Shown here piece by piece: positions 45,078-55,750 of a DNA stretch of 55,984 bases. Made by a program: the position numbers and the translations under genes. The stretch is from assembly GCA_035546775.1 (NCBI GenBank), contig DASZWD010000072.1, forward strand, positions 185,021 through 241,004. The letters run 5' to 3'. This stretch comes from Acidimicrobiales bacterium (lineage in GTDB: Bacteria > Actinomycetota > Acidimicrobiia > Acidimicrobiales > JACCXE01). Within the stretch, counting starts at the first letter, position 1, and each line of letters begins with the position of its first letter. The notes beneath the pieces are model-generated. The model was given only the letters and a program-made list of their open reading frames with translations. It did no database searches and was not told the origin of the DNA.

Positions 45078-45154
45078 CGGGACGTGGCGCAGCTCGGTAG
45101 CGCACCTGCTTTGGGAGCAGGGGGTCGCGAGTTCAAATCTCGCCGTCCCGACCA
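45078..45154 (+). tRNA. tRNA-Pro (anticodon TGG), 3' part supplied by the element
   Basis: 77 bases including the encoded CCA. Acceptor arms CGGGACG (45078-45084) and CGTCCCG (45144-45150) pair fully; the anticodon arm reads CCTGC-TTTGGGA-GCAGG, giving TGG; the T arm has GTTCAAATC. The 3' 60 bases are repeated at 51668-51727, so this gene is the target of the integrative element and remains intact on its left side. Confidence 0.97.
45095..45154. repeat. attL, 60-bp direct repeat within tRNA-Pro
   Basis: Identical over 60 bases to 51668-51727, starting at CGGTAG in the D arm and ending with the encoded CCA. The crossover probably lies in the anticodon-to-T-arm part, as for other tRNA-targeting tyrosine integrases. 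The intact tRNA stays on this side. Confidence 0.93.
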
Positions 45155-45209
45155 TATTGGTGCTGGTAGTGAGGCTGTCCGGGCTCATCGATCGCGGTGC
45201 GATTCTCGG

Positions 45210-45232
45210 CCGTGCCCACTACGTGCCCACCA
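45210..45232 (+). promoter_or_regulatory. Candidate integrase arm site, left end
   Basis: A 23-bp sequence shared exactly with 51554-51576. It contains the octamer GTGCCCAC twice, 11 bases apart. It lies 56 bases inside attL. The position near both ends, the same strand and the doubled octamer fit arm-type binding sites of a heterobivalent tyrosine integrase. Confidence 0.6.
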
Positions 45233-45340
45233 GGATCGGTGTCAGACGCGTCCTCGTGGGCAGTCGAGGTCATCAGCGGTTCATTCGTCGCCGCAGCCTC
45301 GACGCACGTAGCTCCCGCCCCGGCGAGCAGATCGCCTTGG

Positions 45341-45601
45341 CTAATCCAAGGCCTCGATCGCGCGATCGGCGACTGTCGTGCGTCGCCAATCACCGAGCGG
45401 CTCGTCAAGTTCCACGAGCCATCCGTATCGCAGAGGGCCGAAGTCGCGTCGCCTAATCAGCGTCGCTGTTCGACCGTTCATTCGAAGCAACCGCGAATAC
45501 CCGTCGCTCGCGACGATTCGGACCCGTGCGCCAGGGTTGAGCTTCCTGCTGAAGTCCGCACGCTGAACACGCACAGCACGTCGCTTCACCCACCAGAGCA
45601 C
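45341..45601 (-). CDS. Small hypothetical protein, beta-barrel-like
   Basis: 86 residues from a GTG at 45601; a second GTG five codons in is possible. The central part, LNPGARVRIVASDG, LRMNGRTATLIRR and GWLVELDEPLG, resembles a small SH3- or KOW-like barrel with conserved glycines at turns. No family was recognised. It lies 15 bases downstream of the preceding small gene on the same strand, as the last gene of the integrase operon. Confidence 0.55.
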   Translation of the reverse strand: MLWWVKRRAVRVQRADFSRKLNPGARVRIVASDGYSRLLRMNGRTATLIRRRDFGPLRYGWLVELDEPLGDWRRTTVADRAIEALD

Positions 45602-45616
45602 GATGCTGAGGTCTAC

Positions 45617-45862
45617 TCAGGCGACGGTCGCGAGTAACTCGACGGCTGCCGGGTCGTTCCTGTCGAGCTGCACGAAGTGGACCTGTCCGTCGTCGTCTAC
45701 GGCCGTGATCCGCACGACCGACCAGAAACGAGGCATCCCCGCGATCAATACAGCCCCGACCGTCACCTGTGAGGGGTCGACCGCATCGCGGAGGAGCGTC
45801 CAGCAGTGGCCGTCGTCGTCCTCCATGTTGAGGTCGGCGATGAGAGAAATCGGTGGTGTCAC
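45617..45862 (-). CDS. Small hypothetical protein coupled to the upstream gene
   Basis: 81 residues from a GTG at 45862 that overlaps the upstream stop as GTGTCA on the plus strand (GTGA-type coupling read on the minus strand). The sequence is acidic near the start (MEDDDGHCW) and predicted beta-rich afterwards ([29 protein letters not shown]). An open frame extends further upstream, but this overlaps the next gene and is not needed. No family recognised. The tight coupling suggests its product acts with that of 45859-46248. Confidence 0.6.
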
Positions 45863-46248
45863 TCGGAGCCTCCTTCGACGCTCAGTGGGTTCTTCACGAC
45901 ACGGTGTGCACATCCAAGGATACGACTGACGAGTTGATCGAGGTCGTCGTGGACGATGTCGTAATGCGGCGCCTGCCCTGTGTCCCATAGCGCCAGGCCG
46001 TTGTCGAGCAACGATCGGGCGGTGAACAGGACGAGCCACTCGGACTCTCGGAGTCGGGTGATCGACACGATCTCAGCCCACGTGAGGCCGCCGACCTCGG
46101 CGAACACGGACACGCCGTAGAACCCGTAGACCTCGTAGTTCCTGAGCGCGCCGAAGGAGAGCGAATCCGGATCGAGCAGGTCGCCTCGGATGACGAATGC
46201 CGCGTCGTCGGGGACCGATTCGCCGCGGCGCTGGCGCTGCTTCGGCAT
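45859..46248 (-). CDS. Hypothetical protein coupled to the integrase gene
   Basis: 129 residues from an ATG that overlaps the integrase stop as ATGA. Residues 15-60 read [20 protein letters not shown] and [17 protein letters not shown]; the second half has [16 protein letters not shown] and [19 protein letters not shown]. The protein looks globular, mixed alpha/beta, with conserved-looking aromatic positions, and no signal or membrane segment. No family was recognised. Translation directly from the integrase mRNA suggests a function tied to integration state, or a toxin-like cargo pair with the next gene. Confidence 0.68.
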
Positions 46249-47369
46249 CAGCGCTCAACTCCGGTAGAAGGCTCCACGTCGCCGAAGCGTTCGAGGTAGC
46301 GGACGATGTCGGCGTCCTGGCCGTCGATGACGTGCTGGTAGCGCAGCGCCGCGTCCGCCGACGCGTGACCGATGCGCGCCATCAACGCCTTCAGGCTCGT
46401 TCCGCTCGCGGCGGCGAGTGTCGCCGCGGTGTGGCGCAGGTCGTGGAAGCGCAAGCCGCTCACGCCGACGGCCTTCGTTGCCGGCTCCCATACGCGGCGG
46501 CGGAAGTTGCTGCGGCGCAAAGGCTCGCCGTCGGTGCTCGGGAACACGAGGCCGTCCGGCCCGCGCAGCGCGTAGTTGTCGATGTGCGCAGCGAGCGAGT
46601 CGGCGACGAACGACGGGATGCCGATGGTGCGCTTGCCGGCCGCGGTCTTCGGCGGACTGAACGAGAGCGTGCCGTTGACCTCGCCGAGCTTGCGCCTCAC
46701 CGTCAGGGTGTTGGTCTCGAGGTCGACATCGCACCGCCGTAGCCCGGCGAGTTCGCCCCACCGCAGTCCGCTGTAGGCGGCGGTGAGCACGAGGGCTTCC
46801 CAGCGCGGCCCGACCGCGGCCGCGAGTGCCGCAACCTCGTCAGGTGTCGCCACGGACATCTCGGCGTGACGCTCAGTGCCGGCGCCCTTGAAGGTGCAGG
46901 GCGAGCGGGCGATCAGGCCGGCGTCGACGGCACCCTCCATCACGCCACTGAGGACGCGGTACGCCTTGGCGACGGTGTTTGGGCTCAGATCAGTCGCGTG
47001 GAGGTCGGCTAGCCAGGCCTGGACGGCGGCTGGCGTGATCCGGCCGACGTCGGTCTTGCCGAAGCGCGGGACAACGTGACGCCGCAATAGATAGCGGTAC
47101 AGATCCTCGGTCGCGGGCGCAAGGCGCGGCGCCTTCGTGGCCAGCCAGCGGTCGGCCCACTCGTGGAACGCCACCTCGCCGAGCCGCGGGTCGTGCCAGT
47201 CGCCGCGCGCCATGTCGGTCTCGGCGGCCGACAGCCAGCGTTGCGCGTCGCCTCTGGTGGCGAAGGTGTTGGGCGCGCCGATGCGGTCGCCGGCGGAGTC
47301 CCAGTAGCGCGCCTGCCAGCGCCCGGATTGAAGTCGACGAACTGAGCCGAAGCGACGCCGTGCCGTCAC
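46248..47369 (-). CDS. int: Tyrosine recombinase / site-specific integrase
   Basis: 373 residues from a GTG at 47369 with AGGAGG 9 bases upstream. An N-terminal arm-binding domain ([20 protein letters not shown]) is followed by a SAM-like core-binding domain (residues 65-150) and the catalytic domain with R203 in SGLRWGEL, K241, H309 and R312 in [10 protein letters not shown]335 in IGHAS and Y344 in ALRYQHV. All six catalytic residues are present, so the enzyme should be active. The AP2-like N-terminus fits arm-site binding at the 23-bp repeats near the ends. Confidence 0.95.
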
Positions 47370-47457
47370 GGTCGAGCCTCCTGATACGTGGAGTCATCGA
47401 GGCCGAGTGAACGGCGAGGCCCGTCGGGCAATCGCAGAATACGCCCGCGGTGTGACG

Positions 47458-47670
47458 TCATCGCCTCGCGTCAGCGGCGCTCCGGTTGTGGTCGAGCCAC
47501 GCCGCGATCTCGTCGGAGTCGAAGCGGATCAGGTGACCCCACTTGATGAAGGGGATGCGGCGCTCGGCGATGAGGCGGCGGACGTGGCGGACGTTGACGC
47601 CGAGGTGCTTGGCGACGGCGGGGATGTCGAGCAGCTCGGGGAGCTGGCGTCTTGGATGGGCGATGGTCAC
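47458..47670 (-). CDS. xis: Excisionase-type helix-turn-helix protein
   Basis: 70 residues from a GTG at 47670 with AAGGAG 5 bases before it. The sequence LLDIPAVAKHLGVNVRHVRRLIAERRIPFIKWGHLIRFDSDEIAAWL is split here for length but forms the MerR/AlpA-like HTH_17 domain: the helices are LDIPAVAKHLGV and VRHVRRLIAER, and the wing is FIKWGHLIRF. Such proteins bend DNA for excision or regulate the integrase. It lies 88 bases upstream of int on the same strand. Confidence 0.88.
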   Translation of the reverse strand: MTIAHPRRQLPELLDIPAVAKHLGVNVRHVRRLIAERRIPFIKWGHLIRFDSDEIAAWLDHNRSAADARR

Positions 47671-47698
47671 GGCGCTCCTTCGTGGTTGGCCTGTAATC

Positions 47699-47714
47699 AC
47701 ATCCACGTACGATC
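47699..47714 (-). promoter_or_regulatory. Promoter-like motif copy A (upstream of xis)
   Basis: Read on the minus strand as GATCGTACGTGGATGT. It ends 28 bases before the xis start. An identical 16-base copy in the same orientation relative to its gene lies at 48134-48149, and a 13-base match lies at 49174-49186. It probably marks a common promoter element or an operator of an element regulator. Confidence 0.6.
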
Positions 47715-47744
47715 CGGCACCGCGAAGCGCGACGCGTACCGCGT

Positions 47745-47759
47745 GCTGTGTCACACAGC
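47745..47759. promoter_or_regulatory. Palindrome 1, candidate operator
   Basis: GCTGTGTCACACAGC is a perfect 7-bp palindrome around one central base, 75 bases upstream of the xis start. A second palindrome with the same arms lies at 47819-47833. Confidence 0.6.
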
Positions 47760-47779
47760 GGGCTGGTCGCGGGGCAGCA

Positions 47780-48040
47780 TCACCCGTTGTCAACCTTGCG
47801 CGTCAAGGCGTCGGCCGCGCTGTGTGACACAGCATCCCTGGTACGGCGCTTGACGCCGTGGAAGCGCTCGTGCGCTGCTTGTCGAGTGATGCCAAAGGCC
47901 GCGCCGATGTCAGCCCAGCTCGCGCCGCAGTCGTGGGCCTCGAGGACGTACGAGATCGCTTGGCGCCTGCACTCGATCGCATGCTCCTCGGATTGACGAG
48001 CGAGCACGAGCAAGCGCGCGGCCCTTTCGGTGGTCTTCAC
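47780..48040 (-). CDS. Small HTH protein
   Basis: 86 residues from a GTG at 48040 with GGGAG upstream. The C-terminal half contains ASWADIGAAFGITRQAAHERF, a helix-turn-helix of the type seen in sigma region 4-like or phage regulatory proteins. The first 45 residues are helical (ARLLVLARQSEEHAIECRRQ) and could dimerise. It lies upstream of xis on the same strand and its 3' end contains palindrome 2, so it is a likely autoregulated controller of int/xis. Confidence 0.72.
   Translation of the reverse strand: MKTTERAARLLVLARQSEEHAIECRRQAISYVLEAHDCGASWADIGAAFGITRQAAHERFHGVKRRTRDAVSHSAADALTRKVDNG
47819..47833. promoter_or_regulatory. Palindrome 2, candidate operator inside the HTH gene
   Basis: GCTGTGTGACACAGC has the same seven-base arms as palindrome 1. 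The centres (47752 and 47826) are 74 bases apart, close to seven helical turns. It lies inside the 3' coding part of the small HTH gene. Confidence 0.6.
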
Positions 48041-48133
48041 ACGGCTCTCCCGACGTGATCGGTCGATCTAGGAGAACCGATGCCGGTTCCGAGCTGCACG
48101 AATTATCGCGCGCCTTCGCGCTTTTCGGTCACC

Positions 48134-48149
48134 GATCGTACGTGGATGT
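48134..48149 (+). promoter_or_regulatory. Promoter-like motif copy B (upstream of the RHH-like gene)
   Basis: GATCGTACGTGGATGT on the plus strand, identical to copy A. It ends 35 bases before the ATG of the gene at 48185. It falls in the 144-base divergent region between the HTH gene and the plus-strand genes. A short 23-codon frame (48080-48151) with AGGAGA ahead also ends here; I give it little weight. Confidence 0.58.
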
Positions 48150-48184
48150 AGTGCAGCCATTCCCGAACCCGCGAGGTGCCATCG

Positions 48185-48910
48185 ATGACCGAACCGCTCT
48201 ACCCGCGTCAACAACACAGCAACGACTTGAAGAACGACACAGACTTGCCATTACCGCGTAGCGGCAATGGCGGAAACGAGTCGCGCGCGTCAAACGTGCC
48301 GGCGCAGCCAACCGCTGCTGAGCTGATGGCGGCGCTCGACGACGCCCTGCTCGTGCCCGACGGCCCGCCACTCCACGAAGTCGACCCGCAGACGGTCCTC
48401 GACTGGGCAGAGCGAGCAAGCGAGCGGCTGCTCTTCCGTCGCGATCGAGTGCGACTGGTCCGTGACGTGCTCCGCGTCCTGGACGACGAGTGGCGCTCGG
48501 CCTACGCCGCCGACCAGCTCCGCCAACAGATCGAGGCGCGCGAACGAGACCGGATCGCGCGCGCCCAGGGCACGTACTGGCAGCGTCGCGACAGCTACCG
48601 ATCGGCGGAGCAGGCGACGCATGTTGTCGTGGACCGCGGGGCCTGGGGCCGGGCCAAGGCCGTAGCCGTGGCACGCCGGACCACCGTCGGTGTCATCGTC
48701 GGGGACCTAGTTGCTGCTGAGGTCCGTCGCCCCCGCCCACGCCGCACGCACCCCGGCGAGTCCGAGACCCGGGTCTTCGCCCGCATCACGATCACGAAGG
48801 AAACCTGGGCGATCTTCCGGTCCCTCGCCAGCCGCAATCACACCACCGCCGAGCGCGCCCTTGGTTCGCTCGTCGAAGCAGCGTTCCCGCAAGATCGGGC
48901 GGGAAGGTGA
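48185..48910 (+). CDS. Tandem ribbon-helix-helix-like protein
   Basis: 241 residues from the ATG at 48185, with GAGG 8 bases upstream. The first 45 residues are polar and probably disordered. A helical acidic region follows. The C-terminal third has two strand-helix-helix units: THVVVD, WGRAKAVAVARRTT, VGVIVGDLVAAEV, and then RVFARITI, KETWAIFRSLASRN, AERALGSLVEAAF. This is the pattern of ribbon-helix-helix DNA-binding units, here two in one chain. It could be a partition, accessory or repressor protein of the element. No family recognised. Confidence 0.6.
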   Translation: MTEPLYPRQQHSNDLKNDTDLPLPRSGNGGNESRASNVPAQPTAAELMAALDDALLVPDGPPLHEVDPQTVLDWAERASERLLFRRDRVRLVRDVLRVLDDEWRSAYAADQLRQQIEARERDRIARAQGTYWQRRDSYRSAEQATHVVVDRGAWGRAKAVAVARRTTVGVIVGDLVAAEVRRPRPRRTHPGESETRVFARITITKETWAIFRSLASRNHTTAERALGSLVEAAFPQDRAGR

Positions 48911-48990
48911 GCCGCTGCGCTGGCGGACCACTTCGGCATAACGCAGGTCGGCCGCGTCGGCGAGAGCTCTGGCCGCAGCAATCCGCCGCC

Positions 48991-49025
48991 GTTATCTCGT
49001 GCGATAACGGCAACTCTGTGCCGTT
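48991..49025. repeat. Two adjoining small hairpins
   Basis: GTTATC (48991-48996) with GATAAC (49003-49008), then AACGGCA (49006-49012) with TGCCGTT (49019-49025), each with a 6-base loop. The two stems share three bases, so only one can form at a time. They lie 80 bases after the RHH-like gene, in the 325-base gap 48911-49235, which otherwise holds the motif copy C and a probable gene remnant. Could be a terminator or switch. Confidence 0.35.
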
Positions 49026-49143
49026 CCGCTGAGAGATCGATCACCGCGCTGAGTGCAGGCGCCGAACGCGATTTGGGCGAGGTCGTCCGTCCGGTCGAAG
49101 ACTTGGTCGCTGAAGCGGACTTGGTCCGGCGGCGTCAGGACAC
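48992..49143 (-). pseudogene. Possible frame-disrupted small gene
   Basis: On the minus strand AGGAGG at 49149-49154 is followed 5 bases later by GTG (49143), but the third codon is a stop. In the frame one base away, an open stretch of about 48 codons (TPPDQVRFSDQVFDRTDDLAQ, in part) runs to 48992. Motif copy C lies 30 bases upstream, at the same spacing as copies A and B to their genes. The combination of motif, ribosome site and immediate stop suggests a gene lost by a frameshift. A leader peptide is the alternative. Confidence 0.35.
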
Positions 49144-49173
49144 GGTGACCTCCTGTGGGTGCGGTTGACACTT

Positions 49174-49186
49174 CATCCACGTACGA
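49174..49186 (-). promoter_or_regulatory. Promoter-like motif copy C
   Basis: TCGTACGTGGATG on the minus strand, a 13-base match to copies A and B. It ends 30 bases before the GTG at 49143, with a strong ribosome site between. Confidence 0.5.
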
Positions 49187-49235
49187 CGCGCGACGGAAAG
49201 TCGCGACGCGCCGGCCGCGCTCTATGGTCATCGGC

Positions 49236-49730
49236 ATGGCCAAGACCTGTCGGCCACCAACCGAACAAGACGCCGCCGAAGCCAAACGAGTCGTGCTCGA
49301 GGGCCTGGCCCGCGGCGACGATGTTCCCGGTCTCGCGACGCAGCTCGCTCCGCTACACCCGAAGAACAACACTTTCCCCGGCGAGGTTCTGCTCAACCTC
49401 GGCGCCGACGCAATCGACCTCGCGGGCGCGTCCCGCGACGAGCCGCTCGCCTACGAAGGAGTTCGTGAACGATTTCTCCCGGAGTGCGAATTCTTCGGCC
49501 GCGACGACCGCAAGCTGCGTTACGCGTTGCTCGCGGTTGCTGCAGTTCGCGGCGGCGTCGAACTTGACCTCCTCGATGAAGTCATCTGGTGGCAGACCGA
49601 CGACCTCTGGTACTACGCACTTTGCGCCTGCGTCGCCTGGATCCGCGCCGCTGCCGACCGCGCCGGGCTGTCCATCAAGATCGCGTGCGAGCGGCTCGCC
49701 GCCGACGACGGGATCGACCTCGGGGCGTAA
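49236..49730 (+). CDS. Hypothetical protein of the integrative element
   Basis: 164 residues from the ATG at 49236; an in-frame ATG at 49224 is also possible, and no clear ribosome site favours either. The sequence is predicted helical: EQDAAEAKRVVLEGLARG, ECEFFGRDDRKLRYALLAVAAV and LWYYALCACVAWIRAAADRAG. A conserved-looking LGADAIDLAG and IWWQTDDLWYY lie in the middle. No membrane segment and no recognised family. It is in the plus-strand half of the element. Confidence 0.6.
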   Translation: MAKTCRPPTEQDAAEAKRVVLEGLARGDDVPGLATQLAPLHPKNNTFPGEVLLNLGADAIDLAGASRDEPLAYEGVRERFLPECEFFGRDDRKLRYALLAVAAVRGGVELDLLDEVIWWQTDDLWYYALCACVAWIRAAADRAGLSIKIACERLAADDGIDLGA

Positions 49731-49861
49731 CTCGCAGTCACGGCGGCTCCGCGGAGCCGGTCTGGCATCCCCATGCACGTGCGCATAACGGCACATAGCG
49801 CGTAGGGGGTATCGCAGCCTGCGCCCACAGATATGCCACGAGAACGATTTGTGCGCTCGGA

Positions 49862-50017
49862 CTATCGCCTTCGAGCGCGCCATTCCGCGAAACCCGCCAG
49901 CGCTAGTCCACCTGCGACAGTGGCAAGCGCCACCACCGGTCCGTACCTGAGCCAGCTGAGCGCCGTCCAGAGCGTCGCGGCCGGAACCCACGCCCAGTGA
50001 ATGTGAAGACGCTTCAC
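49862..50017 (-). CDS. Possible small membrane protein
   Basis: 51 residues from a GTG at 50017. Two hydrophobic stretches, WVPAATLWTALSWL and PVVALATVAGGLALAGF, end in a basic tail (EWRARRR). Two-helix hairpin proteins of this kind include holins and small toxins, but the region could be non-coding. No good ribosome site is visible. Confidence 0.35.
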   Translation of the reverse strand: MKRLHIHWAWVPAATLWTALSWLRYGPVVALATVAGGLALAGFAEWRARRR

Positions 50018-50090
50018 GACGAAATAGTCGCGCGAGCCACGCTCGGGATCGGCATGTCTGCTCGCTGAGCCGGTCGCGTTAGGACGCGGG

Positions 50091-50903
50091 TTAGCCGACC
50101 AGGACGTCGAACGGCCACGGCCGGACGTCTCTGAAGCGTTCCAACTGTTCGCTGATTTGGGCATCGCTGACACGCTCCGTGACCCCCGGCGCAATTTGAG
50201 CCCGGATCAGCGGCACCAGCTCGTCATCAGGCGGATGGTGCTCACCGTGAATCGGCCGGCCATCGAAGTAACGGGGATCGCTTCGGCCTAGCACCCGGTG
50301 AATGGCGAGATCAACGTTCATCTTGTCGCCCGACCAGTGGTCGCCCGGTGGGTAACGGTGGAACATCGGCGAGGCCCTAAGCGCGTCGACCAACGCGGCC
50401 AGGCGACTCGGGTCAGTCAGACCGGGCCGGGCTTGGTCCGTGGCGGCGACATACTTTGCGAGCGCGGGCGCTTCTCGGAACGCGAAGTGGAACGGCGTCC
50501 TTAACGATGCCGGGATCTTCGCTTCCGATGCGGGCCACCCGACTTGCCGCGACTCGCCCGGCGCCGGGTCGTAGTCGCTAACCACGACAGCGGCACTGCT
50601 GGTCCGCGAACCTGGATAGCCGCGGATGGTCCAGCCTCTGGATGGTACGGCCACGTCATTGAGGGCTTCCCAGCGGTGAAGGCGCTCGTCGGTTCGAGAC
50701 ACGACCACGAGCCCGTCTGGATCGAAACGAAGGCGACCGCGCTTCCGATCAGGTCGGAGCCATAACCGGTCGCCAACGATTGCGAGGCCTCCCCACGATC
50801 TACGCCCCGCGCCGCTCACGCAATCGACGCTATTCGGCGACGAGCTACGCCAAGGCTCGCTAAAGGTCCGTGCCCGTATTCCAACGGAGGTAGACCCACG
50901 CAT
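50091..50903 (-). CDS. Hypothetical protein of the integrative element
   Basis: 270 residues if started at the ATG at 50903; the first 40 residues are of low-complexity type and the true start may be later. From about residue 40 the chain looks real: GLAIVGDRLWLRP, RLRFDPDGLVVVSR, HRWEALNDVAVPSR, then AALVDALRASPMFHRYPPGDHW and DVRPWPFDVLVG at the end. The beta-rich first half resembles a PH-like domain. No family recognised. It lies 16 bases after the toxin gene on the same strand. Confidence 0.5.
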   Translation of the reverse strand: MRGSTSVGIRARTFSEPWRSSSPNSVDCVSGAGRRSWGGLAIVGDRLWLRPDRKRGRLRFDPDGLVVVSRTDERLHRWEALNDVAVPSRGWTIRGYPGSRTSSAAVVVSDYDPAPGESRQVGWPASEAKIPASLRTPFHFAFREAPALAKYVAATDQARPGLTDPSRLAALVDALRASPMFHRYPPGDHWSGDKMNVDLAIHRVLGRSDPRYFDGRPIHGEHHPPDDELVPLIRAQIAPGVTERVSDAQISEQLERFRDVRPWPFDVLVG

Positions 50904-50919
50904 ACCGGATATGGCGCTG

Positions 50920-51288
50920 TCAGGCGATTGGCAGCGGGCGAATGCGCAGGCGGCCGTCGCCGATGACAACAACCGCTCCTGCGGTCAGGTCGTCGGTGAC
51001 TTGGTCGAGATTCGCCAAGATGAGTTGGACCTGGTTGAGCGGCCGGCGGGTGACTTCGCCACGGAGCAGGATGACGCTCGGAACCGAGGAGCCCGAGCGC
51101 GCGATCAACGCGCCGAAGTCGGTGTCGATGGTGATGAGCACGCAGCCGTCGGAGACCGCGCGCTCAAGGATCTGCTGATCCGACCGACTGGTGAGGCCCA
51201 CGTCGTAGACGTGCGCAGCTTCGTGGCCCGCGGCGCCGAGTTGTTCTGCGAGGAGCGGCGAGACGCTCTCGTCAACGAGGAACTTCAA
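50920..51288 (-). CDS. DUF5615 PIN-like toxin
   Basis: 122 residues from a TTG at 51288, which overlaps the antitoxin stop as TTGA. MKFLVDESVSPLLAEQL, the VYDVGLTSRSDQQILERA segment and LITIDTDFGALI carry the acidic residues of the PIN-like nuclease fold (D6, E7, D54, D56 region). Members are predicted to be RNases paired with DUF433 antitoxins. Coupling to the upstream gene keeps the antitoxin made first. Confidence 0.85.
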   Translation of the reverse strand: MKFLVDESVSPLLAEQLGAAGHEAAHVYDVGLTSRSDQQILERAVSDGCVLITIDTDFGALIARSGSSVPSVILLRGEVTRRPLNQVQLILANLDQVTDDLTAGAVVVIGDGRLRIRPLPIA

Positions 51289-51515
51289 GCGCCCTGACGG
51301 AGAGGCAGCTCGCGCTCGCGCACGGCTTCGGCCGCGTACTCAAGCGCTTGCCGAATGTCGCCACGCTCGAGATACGGATATGCCTCGAGAATCTCTTCCG
51401 TCGTCATGCCTTCGGCGACCATGCCGACGACGGTCGCGACGGGAACGCGCAGCCCGCGGATGCACGGTACGCCGCCCATCTTGTCGGGCTCGATGGTGAT
51501 CCGGTCGTAGCGCAT
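51285..51515 (-). CDS. DUF433 antitoxin
   Basis: 76 residues from the ATG at 51515. RITIEPDKMGGVPCIRGLRV, VATVVGMVAEGMTTEEIL and YPYLERGDIRQALEYAA are the DUF433 HTH-like motifs. It precedes and overlaps the DUF5615 gene, the standard order of this predicted toxin-antitoxin type. It likely stabilises the element in its host. Confidence 0.87.
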   Translation of the reverse strand: MRYDRITIEPDKMGGVPCIRGLRVPVATVVGMVAEGMTTEEILEAYPYLERGDIRQALEYAAEAVRERELPLRQGA

Positions 51516-51553
51516 CGGCCACAAGGTTACGACCGCGTCGCGGGCGACGTGGT

Positions 51554-51576
51554 CCGTGCCCACTACGTGCCCACCA
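51554..51576 (+). promoter_or_regulatory. Candidate integrase arm site, right end
   Basis: Exact 23-bp copy of 45210-45232, in the same orientation, 91 bases inside attR. It contains GTGCCCAC twice. It falls just upstream of the DUF433 gene, so it might also influence that promoter. Confidence 0.6.
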
Positions 51577-51667
51577 CACCGGACAACTGCGGCTACGGAA
51601 CGGTCTCCACGGTCAACGAATACAGCGGTTGACCAGCGGAGATGCCGCTAAGGCAAAGTAGGAGCGC

Positions 51668-51727
51668 GGTAGCGCACCTGCTTTGGGAGCAGGGGGTCGC
51701 GAGTTCAAATCTCGCCGTCCCGACCAA
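51668..51727. repeat. attR, 60-bp tRNA-Pro fragment
   Basis: Exact copy of the last 60 bases of tRNA-Pro without its 5' acceptor and the first part of the D arm. The sequence ahead of it (GGCAAAGTAGGAGCG) cannot complete a tRNA. This is the displaced original 3' end after integration. Confidence 0.93.
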
Positions 51728-51753: not shown

Positions 51754-54336
51754 TCAGTCGAACGTCGACCAGTCGCCCTGCGCCAGCTGGGCGCGGGCGT
51801 CGGTGACGTCGCGGCCGTCGCGCACAGCGTCCTGCACGCCGGCCGACAGCAGCGGGTAGCCGACGACGATTGCGCCGGCGACGCGGCCGTCGTGCAGCAC
51901 GAGCTTGCGGTAGCCGTTGGTGTCGTCGGCGACGACGATCTCCTCGTCGCCCTCGACGGCGTTGATGCGGCCCGCCGACATGACGTCGAATCCCTCGACC
52001 TTGAGGATGGTGGCGATGGGCCGCGCCGCGTATGGCTCGCGCGCACCCAGCGCGTTGCGCGCCGCCACCTCGCCTTGGTGCGCCGCGTCGGGCCACAGGC
52101 CGCGCATGCCGCTCGTCGGCTGCGCGGCATCGCCCACGGCGAAGATGTTGGGGTCGTCGGTGCGCAGGAACTCGTCGACGACGACGCCCCGGTCAACGGT
52201 CAATCCCGCTTCCTGCGCCAGCGCGGTTGACGGCGCGTTGCCGGTGCAGACCAGGAGCATGTCGGCGGCCACGGCGCGACCGTCGAGCAGTCCGACACCT
52301 TCGACGTCGCGCTCGCCCGTGACGCTCGCTAGTTCGGCGTCGGCGAGCACGTCGATGCCCAGGTTCTCGAGATACGTGCGCAGCAACGTGGCCGCGGCGG
52401 CGTCGAGTTCACGCCCGAGGAGGTACGGGCCGCGGTTGAGCAGCGTCACCGCGAGCCCCATCTTGTGCACGGCGTACGCCGATTCGATGCCGAGCAGCCC
52501 GCCGCCGGCGACCACGACACGGTGCACCTTGTCGTGCTGCGCGTAGGCCCGAACCGCGATGGCGTCGTCGGCGTCGCGCAACACGAAGCAGCCGGCGAGA
52601 TCGATGCCCGGTATGCGTGGTCGTGCCGCACTGGCGCCCGTGGCCAGGATCAGGCGGTCGTAGTGCAGCTGCTCGCCCGTCGCCAGCTGGACGACTCGTG
52701 CCTCGCGGTCGAGCCGGCGCGCCCGGGTGTTGAGCCAGCAGGTGACGTTGTGCTTGTCGTACCAGTCCTCGGGCAGCAGGAACAGGCCGTGCATGGCCGA
52801 GCGGCCGTAGACGAGCCGCGTGATCGCCATGCGGTTGTACAGCCGGCGCGGTTCGGCGGCGACCACGTGCAGTTCGCAGTCGGGGTTGAGCCGCCGCAGG
52901 TGGTCCACGGCCGACGACCCGCCGATGCCGTTGCCGATGACGACGACGGAGCGGACCGTGTCGTCGAGCTCGAAGCCCGCAGGTACTTCCGGCACTGGGC
53001 CGGCGTCGGCGCTCTGCGCGTCGAGCGAGACGCGGCAGTCGCCGTTGACCCGGGCCATGCACGCCATGCGCGTCGCCCCACCGAGACCCAACCGGGCGAT
53101 CGTGTCGGCCTCCTGGGTCCGCAGCGGCGAGAGGCTGTCGCCACCGTCGAGCACGGCGACGGGATCGGATCCACACACGCCCATGCGGCAGCCGGCCTCG
53201 ATCGACAAGCCGGCGCGCTCGACCAGTTCGAGCAACGAGGTGCCCACGGGTGCCGCGACCGTCACCCCTTCCGGTTCGATGTCGACGACGGGTTCGCCCG
53301 CCGCCTCGCGCCGCCTCGCCGTGACCGCTTCGACGGGAATGACGGCGTGCGCCGGCGCGACCTCGCGCAGGTACTCCTTCTCCTTGGCGAAGGTGCGGGA
53401 AAGCCACACGACACTCGCCGCGCCGACGGCCGCGCGACCGGTCCACACGAGCGCGAATGGCGCGCCACCGACGACGATCGGCAGGACGTGCCAGTAGAAG
53501 AGGTTGATGGCGAGCGCGGCGAACAGTGCCGTCGTGCGGTGCGAGCCGAGCGGGCCGAACGTGTCGAGGAGCACGAACACCGCGAGGCTTACCGCGATGA
53601 ACACCCCGTAGCGGGTGTAGATGTGCTGGACGGCGGCGCCGTCGTGAAGCGAGAAGAACGCCACGATGAAACCCGGGAACCCACCGGCGAAGACGGCGCG
53701 GTAGCCGCGGTAGCGCTTGTCGTCGTCGTCGAGGTCGGCGAGTTTGGCGACCTTCGGGTTGAAGTCGTAACAGTTCTTGGCGCAGCCGACGCACGGTTTG
53801 CAGTAGCGGTTGGCGCTCAACACGAACGGCGTCTCGCCGTACAGCCGCTGCACCGGCAGCAGCGGACACACGCTGCTGCACCAGCCGGCCTTGCCCTTGA
53901 AGGCGAGGCCACCGGTGAACGCCAGCGCGATGACGGCGAGCAGGAGCAATGCCGTGGCCGGCCCGTTGGTGTCGAACACGACGCGCCGCAGCGAGATCAA
54001 CACGACGAACGCCACGAGACCGATGGCGTAGGTGGTGCGCAGCATGGCGTCGGGCAGCGCCTTGCCGCGAGTGATGCCAAGACCGCGCGGCACCTGATTC
54101 GCCGCCGCCAGCGGGCAGAGGTTGCGCCACAAGCCCGGCACGATCAGCCAGACCGCCGGCAGCACCGGCACCGTGAACCGCCAGAAGATCGTGAGGCCGA
54201 GGTGCGGCTTGACGAACAGCAGCGCGCACAGCACCAGAAACGAACTCACACTGATGATGCGACCGACGACCCACACGCGCTCGGGCACGCGCCGGCGCAT
54301 TTGCAGGTAGTTCGGAAACGCCACGGCGGTGTTCAC
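51754..54336 (-). CDS. Redox fusion: membrane Fe-S module, [2Fe-2S]-like domain and FAD/NAD reductase
   Basis: 860 residues from a GTG at 54336 that overlaps the upstream stop as GTGA. Residues 20-310 hold about seven membrane helices with cysteine groups C74, C153, C157 and the ferredoxin-like C179, C182, C185, C189, as in NosR- or NapH-type electron-transfer proteins. Residues 350-440 form a ferredoxin-like domain with C383, C388, C426 and C434 (CRMGVCG and ACMARVNGDC). Residues 460-860 are a pyridine-nucleotide disulfide-type reductase, as in the N-terminus of NirB or rubredoxin reductase, with VVVIGNGIGGSS for FAD and VVVAGGGLLG for NAD. The acceptor is unknown. Confidence 0.85.
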   Translation of the reverse strand: MNTAVAFPNYLQMRRRVPERVWVVGRIISVSSFLVLCALLFVKPHLGLTIFWRFTVPVLPAVWLIVPGLWRNLCPLAAANQVPRGLGITRGKALPDAMLRTTYAIGLVAFVVLISLRRVVFDTNGPATALLLLAVIALAFTGGLAFKGKAGWCSSVCPLLPVQRLYGETPFVLSANRYCKPCVGCAKNCYDFNPKVAKLADLDDDDKRYRGYRAVFAGGFPGFIVAFFSLHDGAAVQHIYTRYGVFIAVSLAVFVLLDTFGPLGSHRTTALFAALAINLFYWHVLPIVVGGAPFALVWTGRAAVGAASVVWLSRTFAKEKEYLREVAPAHAVIPVEAVTARRREAAGEPVVDIEPEGVTVAAPVGTSLLELVERAGLSIEAGCRMGVCGSDPVAVLDGGDSLSPLRTQEADTIARLGLGGATRMACMARVNGDCRVSLDAQSADAGPVPEVPAGFELDDTVRSVVVIGNGIGGSSAVDHLRRLNPDCELHVVAAEPRRLYNRMAITRLVYGRSAMHGLFLLPEDWYDKHNVTCWLNTRARRLDREARVVQLATGEQLHYDRLILATGASAARPRIPGIDLAGCFVLRDADDAIAVRAYAQHDKVHRVVVAGGGLLGIESAYAVHKMGLAVTLLNRGPYLLGRELDAAAATLLRTYLENLGIDVLADAELASVTGERDVEGVGLLDGRAVAADMLLVCTGNAPSTALAQEAGLTVDRGVVVDEFLRTDDPNIFAVGDAAQPTSGMRGLWPDAAHQGEVAARNALGAREPYAARPIATILKVEGFDVMSAGRINAVEGDEEIVVADDTNGYRKLVLHDGRVAGAIVVGYPLLSAGVQDAVRDGRDVTDARAQLAQGDWSTFD

Positions 54337-54788
54337 AGCCGCTGTTCGATAGCGCGCAGACGGCTCGCCATCAGCGAGCCCAGGTCGAGCAGCAGGGCGC
54401 GGCCGAGTTCGGGATGGCGCGCCGTCAACAACTCCCATTCGTCGTAGCCCAAGCGGAGCAACTCGCCGTCGGAGAGGGCCCGAACCGTCGCCGACCGCGG
54501 TCGGCCATCGAAGAACGCCACTTCGCCGAACACGGCGCCGGTCTCCATGATCCCGGTGCGCTTGGTACCGCGACGCCCGGCGACGAGTACCTCGACGGTC
54601 CCGTCGCTCAAGACGTACAGCGAGCGATCGCTCTCCCCCGCCTCGAGGATCGTGTCGCCCTGGCGGAAGCGCCGCCGCTCCATGGCGGCGATCAGTGTTT
54701 CCCAGTCCTTGGGGTCCCGACCGGCAAACAACACGAAGCCCGAGTGGTGAGACTCGGTCGGGTTGCCGTAATCGAAAAACGAACTCAC
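54333..54788 (-). CDS. Cyclic nucleotide-binding domain protein (Crp-like, no HTH)
   Basis: 151 residues from a GTG at 54788. One cNMP-binding domain is seen: FRQGDTILEAGESDRSLYVLSDGTVEVLV, written in pieces here as RQGDTILEAGE, SLYVLSDG, TGAVFGEVAFFDGRPRSATVRAL. The phosphate-binding cassette reads GEVAFFDGRPRSAT. No helix-turn-helix follows, so it is not a classic Crp regulator. It is coupled to the redox fusion gene by a 4-base overlap and is likely its regulatory partner. The open frame upstream to 55124 is a shadow. Confidence 0.85.
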   Translation of the reverse strand: MSSFFDYGNPTESHHSGFVLFAGRDPKDWETLIAAMERRRFRQGDTILEAGESDRSLYVLSDGTVEVLVAGRRGTKRTGIMETGAVFGEVAFFDGRPRSATVRALSDGELLRLGYDEWELLTARHPELGRALLLDLGSLMASRLRAIEQRL

Positions 54789-54848
54789 TGCGAGAGGCCT
54801 ACTGCTGTCATCGGGCGCCTTGTTACACCCCTGGCGTACAACGAACGA

Positions 54849-55289
54849 ATGAAACGCTGCTCGCGCTGCGGCGAAGAGAAACCCCTCACCGAATTCTCCT
54901 GGAAGGACAAGGAGAAAGGCTGGCGCAAAAGCCATTGCAAGGCGTGCGTGCGGATGAAGAGCCGGGCGCACTACGCCTCGAACAAAACGTCGTACGCCGC
55001 ACGAATTAGGCGCTACAAACGACGCAAGCGCGCGGACCGGCTCGACTTTCTCGTCCGGTATCTCGAGACGCACCCGTGCGTCGACTGCGGCGAGACCGAT
55101 CCGCTCGTGCTGGAGTTCGACCATCTGCGCGACAAGCGTTTCAACATCGGCGGAGAGTTCCTATGGCGAACGTGGGACGAGGTTCTAACCGAACTCGATA
55201 AATGTGAAGTGCGCTGCGCGAATTGCCACCGACGACGTACAGCTGCTCGTGGCGGATTCCGTCGCCTCGTCCTCGGGACAGAGCAGTGA
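54849..55289 (+). CDS. HNH-like nuclease family protein (copy 1)
   Basis: 146 residues from ATG 54849. A zinc-finger-like start (CSRCGEEKPLTEF, CKACV) precedes a basic helical region and the HNH-type part CVDCGETDPLVLEFDHLRD, then KCEVRCANCHRRRTA. The DH, N and H residues fit an HNH nuclease with a structural zinc site. It shares layout and motifs with the following gene. It is divergent from the cNMP gene. Confidence 0.8.
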   Translation: MKRCSRCGEEKPLTEFSWKDKEKGWRKSHCKACVRMKSRAHYASNKTSYAARIRRYKRRKRADRLDFLVRYLETHPCVDCGETDPLVLEFDHLRDKRFNIGGEFLWRTWDEVLTELDKCEVRCANCHRRRTAARGGFRRLVLGTEQ

Positions 55290-55750
55290 AGCGCTGTTCG
55301 ATGTGTGGAATGGAGAAGGCGCTCAACGACTTCATGTGGAGTCGCAAGGCGGAAGGCAAGCGAGATTCGTACTGCCGTCCTTGCCGCGCCGAGTACAAGA
55401 AGGCGCACTACGCCGCCAACAAACGGCGTTACCTGGCGAACGCCACGGCCATGACGAAGAAGCTCCTCGACCAAAGGGTCATGTGGCTCCTCGACTACTT
55501 CGCAACGCATCCGTGCGTTGATTGTGGCGAAGCCGACCCGATCGTCCTCGACTTCGATCACCTGCGAGATAAGTCGTTCACAATCAGCACTGCACTCCAC
55601 TACAAGAGCATGAAGGCAATTCTGGCGGAAATCGAAAAGTGCGAAGTCAGGTGTGCGAACTGCCACCGACGACGGACCGCCAGAACGGGCGGGTTCGCTC
55701 GCGTGATGTTCGTCGGCTGGAACCGGCTTGCTTTGCGGTTCGGAGACTGA
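55286..55750 (+). CDS. HNH-like nuclease family protein (copy 2)
   Basis: 154 residues from a GTG at 55286 overlapping the previous stop as GTGA. The same motifs recur in order: CSMCGMEKALNDF, CRPCR, HYAANK, CVDCGEADPIVLDFDHLRD, KCEVRCANCHRRRTA. The two copies are clearly paralogous but diverged, especially in the middle. Tandem coupling suggests a heterodimer or recent duplication. Target unknown. Confidence 0.8.
   Translation: MKRCSMCGMEKALNDFMWSRKAEGKRDSYCRPCRAEYKKAHYAANKRRYLANATAMTKKLLDQRVMWLLDYFATHPCVDCGEADPIVLDFDHLRDKSFTISTALHYKSMKAILAEIEKCEVRCANCHRRRTARTGGFARVMFVGWNRLALRFGD

Follow-up and report, generated by a model that had tools for sequence, protein, structure and literature searches.

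The window analysed here, a stretch of 55,984 nucleotides from an Acidimicrobiales bacterium (contig DASZWD010000072.1), carries on its minus strand two overlapping genes, one for a three-module redox protein and one for a separate cyclic-nucleotide-binding domain (cNBD) protein. We read this pair as coding for a membrane-bound NAD(P)H oxidoreductase and a signal sensor that sets its activity, an interpretation to which we give roughly even chances. The redox fusion gene (51754..54336, minus strand, GTG start) encodes 860 residues arranged as (i) a membrane Fe-S part, (ii) a [2Fe-2S] ferredoxin domain, and (iii) a ferredoxin-reductase-type FAD/NAD domain. An earlier reading made from the letters of the DNA alone (the sequence-only reading) had proposed such a single chain, and translation together with Pfam matches to Fer2, Pyr_redox_2, and Rubredoxin_C confirmed it, in agreement with an alignment of relatives and an AlphaFold2 model of mean predicted local distance difference test score (pLDDT) 88.5. 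The cNBD gene (54333..54788, minus strand, 151 residues) lies upstream, and its stop codon shares 4 nucleotides (GTGA) with the start of the fusion; the coordinates, lengths, and overlap described in that reading are all correct. The cNBD product is recognized by Pfam (cNMP_binding, 38-124, E 1e-19) and by alignment with CRP, and cNBD genes are also present beside relatives of the fusion.

To describe the family, a profile built from the N-terminal half of four relatives was searched against data with one genome per species, which gave 141 places, of which 80 loci were fetched; residue conservation was counted in an alignment of 77 full-length members, to which all counts out of 77 refer. The fetched loci span four phyla, with hosts in Nocardia, Mycobacterium/Mycolicibacterium, Geodermatophilus, Nocardioides, Solirubrobacter, Acidimicrobiia, Chloroflexota, beta- and gammaproteobacteria, and metagenome-assembled genomes (MAGs) of Verrucomicrobiota. 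All three modules occur in every fetched frame that is not interrupted by a contig end; a check for relatives encoding the modules as separate genes found them fused in every full-length relative. Eleven residues are invariant: C74, C153, C157, C179, C182, C185, C189, C383, C388, D391, and C426. The fusion thus defines a real but sparse family. Prevalence, measured for its own phylum, class, and order, amounted to 2 of 396 genomes sampled from the phylum and 5 of 298 genomes of the order, the genome of the window included. The fusion is absent from the one genome of the same genus, itself only 77% complete, and present as a single full copy in its own genome; among the matches listed, up to a limit of 5000 records, no plasmid record covered 80% of the query.

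The membrane Fe-S module (residues 1-330, 53347..54336, minus strand) has eight predicted transmembrane (TM) helices, N-in/C-in, and AlphaFold2 modeled eight long helices in this part (pLDDT 91.3 for the module alone). Its Fe-S motifs comprise one full C179-x2-C182-x2-C185-x3-C189 series (53770..53802, minus strand) placed between helices 4 and 5, a GWCxxxCP motif with C153 and C157 (53863..53886, minus strand) within the Fer4_5 match region, and a half motif, W70-R-N-x-C74-P75 (54112..54129, minus strand), that keeps one cysteine of a CX3CP-like site; W70, R71, C74, and P75 are invariant, as are the GWCxxxCP motif and the four cysteines of the full series. Lysine and arginine counts averaged over the 77 members are 3.4 in loop 66-95, 5.5 in loop 146-206, and 3.4 past helix 8, compared with 0.65, 0.26, 0.19, and 0.30 in the loops of the opposite side. 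Since these counts make the cysteine-bearing loops the positive side, both termini and all invariant cysteines are predicted to face the cytoplasm, next to the ferredoxin and the reductase. A haem-bearing membrane module was rejected, there being no invariant histidine in residues 1-350.

The membrane module had been called NosR/NapH-like, which is fair as a statement of resemblance. Like NapH/MauN and NosR/RdhC, it is a multi-helix membrane unit in which a CX3CP site (GWCxxxCP) precedes a C-x2-C-x2-C-x3-C series, and hidden Markov models give weak matches: at E<=0.01, the membrane part of 38 of 61 relatives matches Fer4_5 remotely and that of 40 of 61 matches NapH. The window protein, however, stays below the curated cut-offs (TIGR02163, 17.6 bits versus 213; Fer4_5, 16.7 versus 22). 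NapH and NosR have two CX3CP motifs between TM helices, whereas in the fusion the second is intact and the first is reduced to one cysteine (WRNxCP); the fusion also differs in its eight helices, in having one 4Fe-4S motif rather than two complete ones, in the lack of an FMN domain, and in being joined to a ferredoxin and an NAD(P)H reductase. NapH is proposed to draw electrons from quinol (PMC5928378), whereas electrons would enter the fusion from NAD(P)H. Thus the fusion is neither NapH/NosR, whose two defining motifs it does not show, nor NirB (see below), and its partner is not CRP, although each module has relatives.

The second module is a Fer2 [2Fe-2S] domain (residues 352-430, 53047..53283, minus strand; E 3e-7, 30.7 bits versus a gathering score of 21), and its profile matches ferredoxin-4 (9i2a) with E 1e-12. 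The canonical four-cysteine series C-x4-C-x2-C ... C is not found here. Instead, the domain carries the invariant pattern C383-x4-C388-x2-D391 ... C426, in which D391 aligns with the third cysteine of ferredoxin-4 and aspartate occupies that ligand position in 77/77. By alignment, these four residues fall where plant-type [2Fe-2S] ferredoxins have their four ligands, and they are candidate ligands. Of the cysteine spacings named in the sequence-only reading, C-x4-C is invariant, while C-x7-C (C426 to C434) did not hold up: position 434 is valine in 61/77, so that C434 is no ligand candidate. An aspartate ligates the [2Fe-2S] cluster of E. coli SdhB, which has the same C-x4-C-x2-D ... C series, down to CGSD (CREGVCGSDGLNMNGKNGLAC). 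Only this ligand pattern is common to the two, SdhB having other domain partners, and aspartate ligation in the fusion is a candidate assignment; the family would offer a probable Asp-ligated [2Fe-2S] site that is conserved throughout.

The C-terminal reductase (51757..52950, minus strand) contains Pyr_redox_2 (463-755, E 8e-55) and Rubredoxin_C (775-839, E 2e-12), both above their gathering scores, and conserved GxGxxG sites. Its fold matches toluene dioxygenase reductase (VIA; Z 37.3, rmsd 2.2, 391 residues aligned, 29% identity). There is no redox disulphide, as no CxxxxC stands at the flavin, where YNRM is invariant instead. Judged from the predicted fold, the domain is of the ferredoxin/rubredoxin/putidaredoxin-reductase type, with the fold of NADH-dependent enzymes that reduce a [2Fe-2S] ferredoxin. 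With TodA/BphA4 of this type it shares the FAD/NAD fold (Z 33-37, 22-29% identity), Rubredoxin_C, and a [2Fe-2S] ferredoxin as redox partner; unlike in those systems, one chain includes the ferredoxin and a membrane anchor as well, and there is no dioxygenase. The label "NirB-type" is right insofar as NirB has the same N-terminal FAD domain and is the best NCBIfam match (TIGR02374, residues 464-850, profile positions 1-394 of 794), but the structural type is that of the ferredoxin reductases. A NirB nitrite reductase was rejected: the score of 275.6 bits is far under the equivalog cut-off of 578.35, and the fusion has neither BFD-like nor sirohaem domains. At residue 634 (52435-52437), where the second beta strand of the NAD site ends, the window protein has asparagine and 71/77 have glutamate; as this acidic residue usually selects NADH, the window protein may depart from the usual preference for NADH.

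This anatomy, the AlphaFold model, and the positive-inside topology support membrane electron entry, as had been suggested, and a cofactor chain running from NAD(P)H through FAD, [2Fe-2S], and [4Fe-4S] to a membrane acceptor is highly probable. The data show the domains, their fusion, the invariant ligands, the coupling of the genes, and the exchange of sensors described below; from these we infer an electron route, an acceptor, a direct contact between the two proteins, and a gating step with its sign, which together would work as follows. NAD(P)H would reduce the FAD of the reductase domain, whose electrons would pass singly to the fused [2Fe-2S] domain with its three cysteines and one aspartate, and from there to the [4Fe-4S] site that the NapH-like module, with its eight helices, holds on its cytoplasmic side. 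The [4Fe-4S] site would then hand electrons to a membrane acceptor, with quinone the leading candidate, although we hold this assignment only tentatively, at somewhat below even chances. The cNBD protein would dock on the fusion, perhaps via a short N-terminal tag described below, and binding of cyclic AMP (cAMP) or cyclic GMP (cGMP) would change how fast electrons flow. Where relatives carry a fused FHA domain, phosphothreonine would be the input, perhaps produced by a neighboring Ser/Thr kinase.

The cNBD partner has the makings of a sensor rather than of a transcription factor. As had been noted before, it has no DNA-binding domain: cNMP_binding is its only Pfam match, and the alignment with E. 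coli CRP stops before the helix-turn-helix (HTH), the protein ending at its C-helix. A CRP/FNR transcription factor was rejected on these grounds. The phosphate-binding cassette FGEVAFFDGRPRSA (54489..54530, minus strand) keeps E89, R98, and S99, which in the CRP alignment and the survey of partners correspond to CRP Glu72, Arg82, and Ser83, the residues that hold the phosphoribose of cAMP (PMC11253593); a check for missing binding residues thus found them in place. Among cNBD-only partners, the pocket glutamate is kept in 33/37 and the arginine in 34/37. A retained pocket is insufficient as proof of nucleotide binding, which is a prediction here: the DdrI protein of Deinococcus has both Glu and Arg but functions in the absence of cAMP (PMC11253593). 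The genome of the window (3.7 Mb) has 23 matches to Guanylate_cyc (class III cyclase), a high number that makes production of a cyclic nucleotide likely.

The coupling of the two genes is nearly universal: among 35 loci without FHA at which the partner was measured, 34 have a cNBD gene that overlaps the fusion gene or lies <=60 nucleotides upstream of it. Nearly all partner cNBDs also share an N-terminal FFDY[P/G] tag (54765..54779, minus strand, in the window; 43/47 by a loose pattern), which is possibly a docking motif. Control of an enzyme by a cNBD without a DNA-binding part is known from Bd1971, a cAMP-sensing EAL phosphodiesterase with the cNBD as input module, whose cassette FGEMALIDNQNRSA resembles FGEVAFFDGRPRSA (PMC6717892), and from the mycobacterial acetyltransferase Pat, to which the window cNBD has an NCBIfam match. 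Both of those enzymes carry the cNBD on their own chain, whereas here it is encoded by a separate overlapping gene and its presumed effector is a redox protein. In an Actinomycetes MAG (L095:1556-2710, minus strand), the partner is a cNBD protein of 384 residues with a signal sequence and a TM anchor, and its pocket residues are lost.

Part of the family carries a different sensor. In one actinobacterial branch the chain is extended by an FHA domain. Thirty actinobacterial members have this domain at the N-terminus and no cNBD; nine have both domains, and two have neither. In eight of the nine the FHA is N-terminal, and the C-terminal one of a Chloroflexota member (L099), beside a kinase gene, is a separate gain. 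The FHA domains retain GR, SxxH, and NG, the residues that bind phosphothreonine peptides. The pocket arginine of the cNBD is lost in 6/9 members with FHA versus 3/37 without (Fisher p 0.0006). As the tree offers only three or four independent contrasts for this, pocket decay in FHA-bearing members is a lead, not proof. Flanking Ser/Thr kinase genes were found at 18/26 FHA-only versus 2/21 cNBD-only loci (p 7e-5, relatedness ignored, and with Actinomycetota rich in kinases), and cyclase genes nearby at 5/21 cNBD-only versus 1/26 FHA-only loci (p 0.08, relatedness likewise ignored). In two loci the cyclase belongs to a run of genes on one strand: cNBD, fusion, and class III cyclase in Nocardioides (L139), with the cyclase 4 nucleotides away, and class III cyclase, cNBD, and fusion in Chloroflexi (L100). 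In part of the family, FHA takes the place of the cNBD as an exchangeable signal module. A second FHA gene, convergent with the FHA-type fusion and mostly a few nucleotides behind it, was seen in 32 loci (for example L165:10664-11851, minus strand), including nearly all those of Nocardia, Mycobacterium, and Geodermatophilus.

Gating by a cyclic nucleotide, as put forward in the sequence-only reading, is consequently only part of the picture. The near-universal gene coupling, the two cyclase runs, and the cyclase matches of the genome speak for it indirectly, but it is not general, as about 30 of the 77 relatives have FHA instead of a cNBD and some cNBD pockets are lost; a wording that names only a signal, not a cyclic nucleotide, suits the family better. 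That the sensor gates electron flow at all appears to us about evenly balanced. A broader claim, of a class, not described before, of signal-gated electron-entry proteins that share one conserved chain (NADH, FAD, Cys3Asp [2Fe-2S], [4Fe-4S], membrane) and whose input has been exchanged during evolution between cyclic nucleotide (cNBD as a separate subunit) and phosphorylation (fused FHA), is put forward with more reserve and falls a little short of an even chance.

Several observations weigh against a signal-set oxidoreductase. On the signal side, the pockets of several cNBDs are degenerate (L102, L173, and G413), a cyclase is close to only a minority of cNBD loci, and none lies within ~129 kb of the window gene pair on its contig. 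The Fisher tests ignore relatedness, and the tree holds no more than 3-4 independent pairs with and without FHA, each agreeing with expectation but together too few for significance. On the membrane side, half of the first CX3CP motif of NapH/NosR has been lost, no quinone site was recognized, and Foldseek and VIA-align against PDB found for this module nothing beyond weak matches scattered over helical membrane proteins. Clustering of neighbors over the 80 loci revealed no general third partner that would name the electron acceptor. A Pfam tally of 77 near neighbors of cNBD loci likewise yielded nothing general, the most frequent domains being Guanylate_cyc (4), HD (4), TPR (4), and Pkinase (3).

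The degenerate pockets would be at home in an ungated NADH:quinone (or NADH:membrane thiol) oxidoreductase, in which cNBD or FHA serves assembly, localisation, or oligomer formation with no switching. The membrane-anchored cNBD of L095 and the two members with neither sensor point the same way, and the tag common to nearly all cNBDs could be a plain docking element. We consider an ungated enzyme improbable, since it would require chance recruitment of two unrelated signal-binding folds, while the pocket Arg and Glu are largely kept in cNBD-only members, the FHA phosphopeptide residues are kept, and kinases and cyclases occur near some loci. The pairing by itself fits information flow in either direction, so the redox chain could instead be the sensor and the signalling part the output, the reductase reporting the NADH or quinone state to a cNBD/FHA pathway; NosR-type proteins were formerly considered regulators (PMC5928378). 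This reversal is more improbable still: the cNBD lacks any output part, whether catalytic or DNA-binding, and in the characterised Bd1971 it acts as an input module (PMC6717892).

A further alternative keeps the electron chain and changes its end point, with electrons crossing the membrane to an exocytoplasmic acceptor rather than reaching quinone. Among named proteins, those of the NapH type are closest to the membrane module, and NapH, NosR, and RdhC operate with exocytoplasmic reductases (PMC5928378). Every invariant cysteine, however, is on a predicted cytoplasmic loop; neither an invariant histidine pair that could bind haem nor an FMN domain nor a redox site on the exocytoplasmic side was seen, and no periplasmic reductase occurs among the conserved neighbors. 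We regard such an outward route as unlikely. The cytoplasmic cysteines together with the lack of an invariant histidine in the membrane module favour delivery to quinone on the cytoplasmic side over an outward wire, without being decisive.

The surroundings of the gene pair in the window include an integrated element of ~6.5 kb (45091-51726) in a tRNA-Pro(TGG) gene, the last 64 nucleotides of which (45091-45154) are repeated at 51663-51726 with 98% identity. The element contains a tyrosine integrase gene (46248-47369, minus strand), an HTH_17 gene (47458-47793, minus strand), and, at its far end, tandem DUF5615 (PIN-like) and DUF433 genes (50920-51563, minus strand), likely a toxin-antitoxin-like pair. 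The redox fusion ends 27 nucleotides beyond the distal tRNA repeat and is thus outside the element. Immediately upstream of the cNBD gene, but encoded on the other strand, are two mutually similar tandem frames (54414-55750, plus strand) with a zinc ribbon and CVDCGExDPxVLxFDH...CEVRCANCHRRRT, which look HNH-like by eye and have no Pfam match at 0.001.

Bacterial cAMP/cGMP and Ser/Thr kinase signals are mostly thought to work through transcription, and, to our knowledge, there is little precedent in bacteria for either controlling membrane redox input by direct allostery. No description of the present architecture was found in the open-access full-text literature, and an earlier description elsewhere is possible. 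If the broader claim of exchanged inputs is true, the flow of electrons into the membrane would be under the direct control of second messengers or kinases. The swap of sensors on a constant redox core would then be a natural experiment on the regulation of electron entry, with clean predictions for the pocket arginine of the cNBD and for the Arg, Ser, His, and Asn of FHA. Such control would be relevant to Actinomycetota, including Nocardia and environmental mycobacteria, as well as to other phyla.

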